A DNA stretch of 64,000 bases from Candidatus Binatia bacterium. Lineage in GTDB: Bacteria; Desulfobacterota; Binatia; UBA9968; JAJDTQ01. Positions 8,297 through 13,600 of the stretch are shown here, one piece after another; the first letter of the stretch is position 1; every line of letters begins with the position of its first letter. The DNA lies in contig OX638375.1 in NCBI GenBank assembly GCA_951813575.1, positions 1,813,042-1,877,041 of the forward strand. The letters run 5' to 3'. A program made the position numbers and the translations under genes. The notes under the pieces are model-generated. The model had not been told where the DNA came from. It was given only the letters and a program-made list of their open reading frames with translations, and made no database searches.

Positions 8297-9067
8297 GTGA
8301 CGTCACCGGATCCATTCATCGACGAGTTGTGGGAATATGCAAACCAGGTGCCAATGGTGGAGCATCCCTGGTTCAAGGGCATCGTGGACCACCGGTGGAC
8401 CCGCGAACAGATCGTTCTCGGAGAGGTACAGCACTATCTCCGGGTGCGCACCAACCCCATCTACTTCGGCTACATCGCGGTCAATGCGGTATCGAACCGG
8501 GAACAGGGGCTGATGGACGTGGTGCTGGAGAACTTCATGGAGGAGCTGTCCGGGGATCGCACCCACGTGGACATCATGTACCAGTTCCTGGAAGGGGCCG
8601 GCATCTCACGCGAGGACGCCGACAACGCCGAGCCCACCCCCGGGACGCTGGCGGCCATCGAGATGATCATCGGCTGCTGCCAGCGACGGTCCGCCTTGGA
8701 GGGGGTAGCCATGCTCGCCTTCGTGGAGAGCCAGCACGGCGGACGCGACGGCGCGGCCGCCCAGGTCTACAAGGAGCTCGTGGGGCACTACGGCTTTTCG
8801 GAACGACAGGTGGAAACGTACCGCATCCACGCGGATCAGGACGTGGGACACGGCGCCCGGCAGATTGAGACCATCTGCCAGGCCGCCACGGATCCGGAAA
8901 CGCGAGAGAAGATCCGGCGCGCCGTCAAGCTCGGCGTCACCGCGTTCACCCTGGAATGGGACGGCCACGTCCAGGCCATGACCGGCCGGCGAGATTTCTG
9001 GGCGGGCGTCCGGCCCCTCGACCCGCGTCAGTCCGAGGCGGGCCTGTCGAAGGTGCGGCAGGCGTAA
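8297..9067 (+). CDS. Heme-oxygenase-fold TenA/PqqC-like protein
   Basis: A 256-residue all-helical protein. It contains YLRVRTNPIYFGYIAVNA, EELSGDRTHVDIMYQFL and a late FTLEWDGHVQAM, consistent with the TenA/PqqC/iron-containing redox (HDO) superfamily. Several His, Glu and Asp residues lie at the places where such enzymes bind a di-iron centre or cofactor. PqqC partners are absent, so PQQ synthesis is not implied. Translation starts at GTG 8297, decided by a perfect AAGGAGGT six nt upstream. Confidence 0.72.
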   Translation: MTSPDPFIDELWEYANQVPMVEHPWFKGIVDHRWTREQIVLGEVQHYLRVRTNPIYFGYIAVNAVSNREQGLMDVVLENFMEELSGDRTHVDIMYQFLEGAGISREDADNAEPTPGTLAAIEMIIGCCQRRSALEGVAMLAFVESQHGGRDGAAAQVYKELVGHYGFSERQVETYRIHADQDVGHGARQIETICQAATDPETREKIRRAVKLGVTAFTLEWDGHVQAMTGRRDFWAGVRPLDPRQSEAGLSKVRQA

Positions 9068-9145: not shown

Positions 9146-9361
9146 CTAGATCGGCCAGTCGTCCGGCAGCGGCGCGCGCAGCTTCAGGTACTCCGAATCC
9201 TCGCCACAGGTTTCCCGGACGCGCTTCAGCGTCGCGACGAGGTCGTCGAGTTCCATGTCAAGCGTGTTGGAGACCATACCCGCGGTCTCTTCGAAGCCGA
9301 GGCCTCAATTGCCGTATCAGCCGCCCATGCGCTTGAAAATGTATTTTTCCCGTTCGGTCAT
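9146..9361 (-). CDS. Candidate small selenoprotein with two in-frame UGA codons (U-Y-G-N-U)
   Basis: From ATG 9361 the minus strand reads MTEREKYIFKRMGG, TGA (9317-9319), Tyr-Gly-Asn, TGA (9305-9307), then GLGFEETAGMVSNTLDM and on to LRAPLPDDWPI and a TAG at 9146-9148. Reading both UGAs as selenocysteine gives a compact 71-residue protein with a U-x3-U redox-like motif flanked by glycines. GGAG lies a few nt before the ATG. A 6-bp stem-loop (9270-9289) starts 15 nt after the second UGA, and its loop lies about 21 nt from the second and 33 nt from the first UGA. Another selenoprotein lies 3.5 kb away. The family is unknown to me. The alternative is a pseudogene with two TGA mutations. Confidence 0.6.
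9270..9289 (-). promoter_or_regulatory. Candidate bacterial SECIS stem-loop
   Basis: On the minus strand a perfect 6-bp stem, GAGACC pairing with GGTCTC, encloses an 8-nt loop GCGGGTAT that begins with G. The distances to both upstream UGAs fall in the 16-37 nt UGA-to-loop range used for bacterial SECIS prediction, so one element could serve both codons. Confidence 0.5.
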
Positions 9362-12774: not shown

Positions 12775-12895
12775 CCCGCCACGCGGCCCGCCGAGAGCTC
12801 CGAGACGGACCGATGTAGACCCGTTTGCCCCGTTCGTAGTAGATTCGGTGCCGAGTCGAAGAGTTGCGACAACCCACAAGACAAGGAGCCCAGGA

Positions 12896-13600
12896 ATGGA
12901 CCAGCCAAACAGCGCATACAACTACGAAACCTTCAGCCGATCGGAGAGCTCGGCCAAGGCCGGCGAGTTCGCCAGGCGCCCGCGGGCGGGAGAGGAGGCC
13001 CCCGACTTCAGCCTCCCGACCCTCGCGGGCGAAACCGTCCGGCTTTCCGGGTTCAAGCGCAGCAAACACGTGCTGCTGGAGTTCGGCAGCATCACCTGAC
13101 CGCCGTTCGTGGGCGAGGTCTCGCCCCTGAACGAGATGTACCGGAACTACCGCGACAAGGGCTTCGAGTTCCTGACGATCTACGTGCGTGAACCCCATCC
13201 CGGAGAGCACTACGGTCCGCACAAGGACTTTGACCAGAAGCTCGAATACGCCCGCCAGTGCCGGGACCAGGACGGCATCGAGAACCCCCTGCTGGTGGAC
13301 GACCTGGAAGGCACGGTCCATCAGCTCTACGGCGTCCTCCCCAACATGGTCTACATCGTCAGCAAGGAGGGACGCATCGTCTACAAGGCCATGTGGACCG
13401 ACCATGAGGAGATCCGGGTAGTGCTGGAGAACCTGGTCATGGCCGACGAGCTGCGCGCCCAGGGCGTGCGCCTGAAGCCCTCCCTCACCGAGAAGATCAA
13501 CTTCATCCCCGCCCAGTACGCCGGCGGCCTCCGCGAGAAGGTCTTCGACCGGGCGGGGCCGAAGGCCTGGCAGGACTACCGGGGGACGTTCGGGGCGTAG
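12896..13600 (+). CDS. Iodothyronine-deiodinase-like thioredoxin-fold selenoprotein (UGA = Sec68)
   Basis: One 234-residue protein is obtained when the in-frame TGA at 13097-13099 is read as selenocysteine. The context LLEFGSIT-U-PPFVGEVS matches the deiodinase active-site signature FGSCTUPPF. The second hallmark, YVREPHPGEHYGPH, corresponds to YI-EAHPSDGW of deiodinases. The N-terminal APDFSLPTLAGETVRLSG and C-terminal PNMVYIVSKEGRIVYKAMW are peroxiredoxin/thioredoxin-like. A SECIS hairpin with a GGUC loop lies 11 nt after the UGA. AAGGAG precedes ATG 12896. Bacterial members probably act in thiol peroxide or halogen chemistry; the substrate is unknown. Frame continuity on both sides argues against a pseudogene. 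Confidence 0.88.
13111..13126 (+). promoter_or_regulatory. Bacterial SECIS element of the deiodinase-like gene
   Basis: The sequence GGGCGAGGTCTCGCCC forms a perfect 6-bp stem with a GGTC loop, closed by A-T. It starts 11 nt after the UGA, with the loop 17 nt downstream. Both the spacing and the AGGUCU apex match the E. coli fdhF SECIS that binds SelB. Confidence 0.82.

Follow-up and report, generated by a model that had tools for sequence, protein, structure and literature searches.

The locus and its genes

A small gene interrupted by two in-frame UGA codons, hereafter the double-Sec gene, lies on the minus strand of the window (the whole 64,000-nucleotide stretch of DNA that was analysed), between a gene for a predicted beta-sandwich protein and a convergent gene for a dimetal oxidase. 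The genes and features considered here are as follows (L112 and L077 are relatives described below):

8297..9067, plus strand: convergent partner gene for a 256-aa heme-oxygenase-like dimetal oxidase (PF14518)
9146..9361, minus strand: double-Sec gene, 71 codons plus TAG, with U15 and U19 (ATG at 9361-9359, TAG at 9148-9146)
9270..9289, minus strand: hairpin 2, candidate SECIS, with a 7-bp stem and a 6-nt apical loop, CGGGUA
9291..9308, minus strand: hairpin 1, with UGA2 inside its 5' arm
9305..9307, minus strand: UGA2 (codon 19, Sec19), Cys in L077
9317..9319, minus strand: UGA1 (codon 15, Sec15), Cys in L112 and L077
9462..9899, minus strand: upstream partner gene for a protein of about 130-145 aa that belongs to no Pfam family and has a predicted Ig-like beta-sandwich fold
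12848..13600, plus strand: deiodinase-like selenoprotein, UGA at 13097-13099 (FGSITUPPF)

With UGA read as U, the translation of the double-Sec gene is MTEREKYIFKRMGGUYGNUGLGFEETAGMVSNTLDMELDDLVATLKRVRETCGEDSEYLKLRAPLPDDWPI, and a purine-rich AGGAG stands immediately 5' of its ATG. The coordinates, sequence and frame given in the earlier note (ribosome-binding site and ATG to TAG, broken only by two TGA codons) are exact; the strand, which that note left unstated, is the minus strand. The gene is overlooked by gene-finding programs because the two UGA "stop" codons interrupt the frame, the first of them as early as codon 15.

Distribution of the family and codons at the two UGA positions

A search of the genomes of the window's class revealed the double-Sec gene in 25 of 148, with identities of 44-97%, and every class member in which both positions are present has TGA twice. 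Across about 85,000 species genomes, a scan yielded 54 loci. Its query, a single peptide and not a family profile, was the conserved stretch 3' of UGA2, selected so that Sec and Cys forms were caught equally. The carriers are metagenome-assembled genomes of "Deltaproteobacteria"/Binatia type and of the Chloroflexota (including SAR202 and Dehalococcoidia), and nearly all members of the family come from such assemblies. Of 400 genomes drawn evenly from the phylum of L077, 18 matched. No relatives were found in the viral collection.

The earlier note had proposed a search for homologues with Cys at either UGA. Among 56 distinct sequences, 54 carry UGA at both positions, one carries TGC/TGA (L112, CxxxU) and one TGT/TGT (L077, CxxxC); none has any further stop codon or residue at either position, so only UGA or Cys was found. 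The Cys evidence thus comes from two genomes only. One locus at a cut contig end (L062) contains an extra in-frame TAG in its C-terminal part (about 90-95) and represents a pseudogene or an assembly error. A weak partial match (L117, G467:C11), which reads GCRNDC and contains an in-frame TAG, was left out of the count; it may be a Cys relative that is distant or has decayed.

Loss of purifying selection, named in the earlier note as an outcome that would refute its proposal, is not seen. In eight close relatives (seven distinct sequences, genus level) dN/dS is mostly 0.1-0.3 over the whole frame, both UGAs included, and in the 90 bases on each side of the frame about 60-80% of sites differ in most pairs. 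Conservation does not extend past the true stop, for which different members use TAA, TAG or TGA. The shortness of the gene and its two in-frame stop codons might suggest a decayed gene or a chance open frame, a reading to which we give virtually no weight in view of conservation across two phyla, the low dN/dS values and the end of conservation at the true stop.

Selenocysteine machinery and the reading of UGA

The earlier note had called another gene 3.5 kb away an unmistakable selenoprotein. This gene is deiodinase-like: with its UGA read through, it matches PF00837 with an E-value of 1.1e-14. It bears a hairpin of its own (GGGCGA-GGUC-UCGCCC), which starts about 11 nt past the UGA. The deiodinase-like gene was ruled out as part of the cassette described below, since the conserved neighbours do not include it.

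The window's genome also encodes the Sec machinery that the earlier note had recommended looking for: SelA, SelB, SelD and a tRNA-Sec with anticodon TCA are all over the cut-off, and selA, selB and selD are adjacent (G000:C1, about 2,675,632-2,679,930). The selD gene contains one in-frame TGA, so that SelD is itself a selenoprotein. Together with the neighbouring deiodinase-like gene, this machinery bears out the supposition that UGA is read as Sec in this organism. SelB was over the cut-off in 14 of the 14 UGA/UGA carriers tested, and SelA, SelD and tRNA-Sec were so in the UGA carriers G526, G152 and G200. In the genome with the Cys/Cys gene (L077), no SelA, SelB, SelD or tRNA-Sec was over the cut-off, and this genome without Sec machinery is a natural control.

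Both UGAs are almost certainly read as Sec, a conclusion drawn from sequence comparison; it has not been shown biochemically, and mass spectrometry or selenium labelling is lacking. The absence of protein data is the only circumstance that leaves room for the reading of UGA as another amino acid, or for ordinary stop-codon readthrough without Sec. Such a reading is very hard to maintain: UGA is replaced by Cys and not by Trp, Gly or Arg, and the Sec machinery goes along with UGA and is missing from the genome that has Cys instead. Reassignment of UGA was ruled out separately, since UGA also terminates many genes of the family (e.g., L020 and L050), and the genetic code is therefore not reassigned.

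The candidate SECIS element and the second hairpin

The consensus of hairpin 2, located 3' of UGA2, is GAGACC[A/G]-CGGGNA-UGGUCUC. By direct count, its loop starts 22 nt past UGA2 and 34 nt past UGA1. The published model of the bacterial SECIS comprises a loop of 3-9 nt, a stem of 4-16 bp, a G among the first two nucleotides of the loop, and a distance of 16-37 nt from the UGA (PMC13188914), and hairpin 2 lies within these limits for both UGAs. The SECIS-type stem-loop at suitable distance, as first seen in the sequence, is thus real and fits the published model, and it is under strong constraint, as the following observations indicate.

The stem codons GAG, ACC, ACG and GTC, together with TTC just 5' of them, have a codon entropy of 0.00 bits (48-52 of 52 Sec genes); codons of E, G, S, R and P residues that are equally invariant have about 1-1.9 bits. 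The sole departure among the stem codons, GTT, belongs to the Cys/Cys gene, in which hairpin 1 is lost too. In hairpin 1, the pair at alignment columns 21/26 swaps between G-C and U-A, and that at columns 19/28 occurs as A-U, G-U or G-C. The divergent L116, which reads LESTTGMVA, has C-G in place of the hairpin 2 pair A35-U52, a swap that alters otherwise invariant residues; its hairpin 1 pair 19-28 is G-C, as opposed to A-U or G-U elsewhere, again with residue changes. From the absence of variation in the stem codons and the swaps in L116 we infer that much of the conservation of FEETTGMVS is RNA driven.

Pair counts for the two-hairpin structure exceed those of shuffled and slid controls. 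Compared with synonymous recoding, the folding energy stands out only moderately (mean z -1.6). The pairs of hairpin 2 are almost perfectly conserved and hence offer little covariation, and the compensatory change comes from one sequence. An Rfam scan of the window and a search with SECIS_1 (RF00031) gave no match; the result is uninformative, as SECIS_1 fell below the cut-off in all control genomes too.

As to mechanism, SelB and Sec-tRNA would be directed by the SECIS hairpin embedded in the codons for FEET(T/A)GMVS, which is in accepted distance of both UGAs. It is inferred that the single SECIS loop serves UGA1 as well as UGA2, and that hairpin 1, whose stem contains UGA2, probably assists in placement or pausing and aids UGA1.

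Predicted fold of the double-Sec protein

An AlphaFold2 model based on 36 family members is all-helical, with four helices and a mean pLDDT of 92. Sec15 and Sec19 are separated by one helical turn and placed at the C-terminus of helix 1. The motif described in the earlier note as glycine-rich and redox active is thus a predicted helix end and not a thioredoxin-type loop, and redox activity has not been shown. No thioredoxin-like beta-alpha fold surrounds the Sec residues in the model, and none was among the top Foldseek matches. Apart from both Sec residues and the residues encoded by the SECIS codons, conservation across the family is found mainly at G14, R62, P66 and P70.

Foldseek returned no significant PDB or viral fold match to the model, the best being a helix-turn-helix of LuxR/GerE type (E 0.6). 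Because the prediction is all-helical, and the top PDB matches are DNA-binding domains of LuxR/GerE type and of MntR, the protein could be thought of as a DNA-binding regulator, in which a helix-turn-helix combined with a selenol redox or metal sensor would control the neighbouring genes. Helix 3 is indeed basic in several members, and the N-terminal T-E-R-E resembles, by our inference, the start of a GerE domain. We nevertheless consider a regulator less likely, though still a live alternative: the E-value of the best fold match is only 0.6, Pfam GerE matches none of 45 members, and helix 3, the would-be DNA reader, is among the least conserved parts of the protein.

In searches of Pfam, NCBIfam (20.0) and PDB, no family match was found for the double-Sec protein. 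Weak matches to TSCPD, NADPH_Ox, radical SAM and nucleotidyltransferase entries in these databases were rejected as chance, their E-values being poor and their occurrence scattered over members.

The neighbouring beta-sandwich protein and dimetal oxidase

In nearly every locus, the beta-sandwich gene is situated directly upstream of the double-Sec gene and on the same strand, and the two genes are probably co-transcribed. The predicted Ig-like fold of its product has a pLDDT of 95.6, and the family is characterized by the motifs PHG.F, ENAFLIL and WR.LAR.

Where a locus has enough DNA, the dimetal oxidase gene nearly always lies downstream in convergent orientation; in two loci (L083 and L084) it is on the same strand as the double-Sec gene. 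With the closest relative set aside, the identity of the oxidases is about 62-76%. Among the 148 class genomes, 27 contain the oxidase, including all 25 that have the selenoprotein. Of the two remaining, one is cut by a contig end; in the other (G126), the 1.9 kb downstream contain no selenoprotein. In the Cys/Cys genome, the oxidase gene is on the same contig, about 5.7 kb from the Cys/Cys gene. The base of the oxidase tree is too poorly resolved to date transfers between phyla, and the phylum labels were taken from submitters' titles.

The residues E82/E83, H90, E144, H178, D182 and H185 occur in every oxidase sequence that covers them, and by alignment to CADD they meet the 3-His/3-carboxylate dimetal ligand set of the HDO superfamily. 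Further residues beyond the usual six ligands are likewise invariant, namely H23, E43, H46, E220, D222 and H224. The oxidase matches CADD/pABA synthase (PDB 1rcw, E 4.5e-12) and BesC (7twa, 4e-4). CADD self-sacrifices an active-site tyrosine, Tyr27 (PMC11965152), whereas all 47 partners that have a residue at the corresponding position of the oxidase carry Phe (Phe26). Judging from this substitution, synthesis of pABA by the oxidase is unlikely.

Possible function of the selenol pair

The 71-residue gene is very probably the founding member of an undescribed family of small bacterial double-Sec (UxxxU) proteins, a judgement that concerns its identity and not its job. It encodes a protein predicted to consist of four helices, the first of which has the Sec15/Sec19 pair at its end, and it is linked to the gene of the convergent dimetal oxidase. 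By inference, the selenol pair most likely serves the oxidase pathway; that it does so by giving electrons or by reducing a product is the role that we favour, with less than even confidence.

Alternatively, the Sec pair could form a metal site, in which case the protein would be a metal carrier that binds a metal ion and delivers it for the oxidase pathway. The i, i+4 spacing in the modelled helix would put both selenols on one face, and in the neighbouring oxidase the set of His, Glu and Asp is fully conserved and unusually rich in ligands. Against this inferred role, which we regard as less likely than the redox role, the small protein has no further conserved ligand (His or Cys), and its gene and that of the oxidase are convergent and do not share an operon.

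More broadly, and only tentatively, the beta-sandwich, the double-Sec helical protein and the ligand-rich dimetal oxidase module may together constitute a new pathway that depends on O2 or handles metal. The UxxxU pair would then be an obligate selenium partner of the oxidase, and a two-hairpin SECIS would use one recognition loop for two UGAs four codons apart. According to a review of heme-oxygenase-like dimetal oxidases, none of the enzymes investigated to date requires a protein effector (PMC13108848). The tight link to the oxidase makes the double-Sec protein a first candidate selenium partner for this group of enzymes.

The analysis adds a well-supported double-Sec family, from uncultured Binatia and Chloroflexota, to the bacterial selenoprotein catalogue. 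It also provides a compact test case for one SECIS serving two nearby UGAs, for which natural CxxxU and CxxxC versions are on offer, the latter from a genome without Sec machinery.

Comparison with known systems

The family is new, and its double-Sec layout and fold are unusual. The statement in the earlier note that no described family has this motif agrees both with the lack of Pfam, NCBIfam and PDB matches and with a catalogue of 119 prokaryotic selenoprotein families, which contains no UxxxU motif (PMC13188914). A search of the literature on UxxxU, on Sec combined with a heme-oxygenase-like diiron protein and on a CX3C selenoprotein found no description.

Two close Sec residues are likewise present in the bacterial metal-binding protein UxxU (NF041115) and the FmdB-type UxxU protein (TIGR02605; both PMC13188914), whereas the spacing here is UxxxU, with no NCBIfam match to either model at E <= 1. 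In TsoB (NF045694, UxxxxU), also bacterial, two Sec residues again lie a few residues apart; unlike TsoB, which resembles a rhodanese/DsbD fusion, the double-Sec protein has 71 aa, is all helical in prediction and gives no match. With the bacterial SECIS consensus (bSECISearch-type model, PMC13188914 Fig. 2A), hairpin 2 shares the 7-bp stem, the 6-nt loop whose second and third nucleotides are G, and the spacing. It differs from that consensus in that one hairpin is in range of two UGAs and is preceded by another hairpin that holds UGA2 in its stem.
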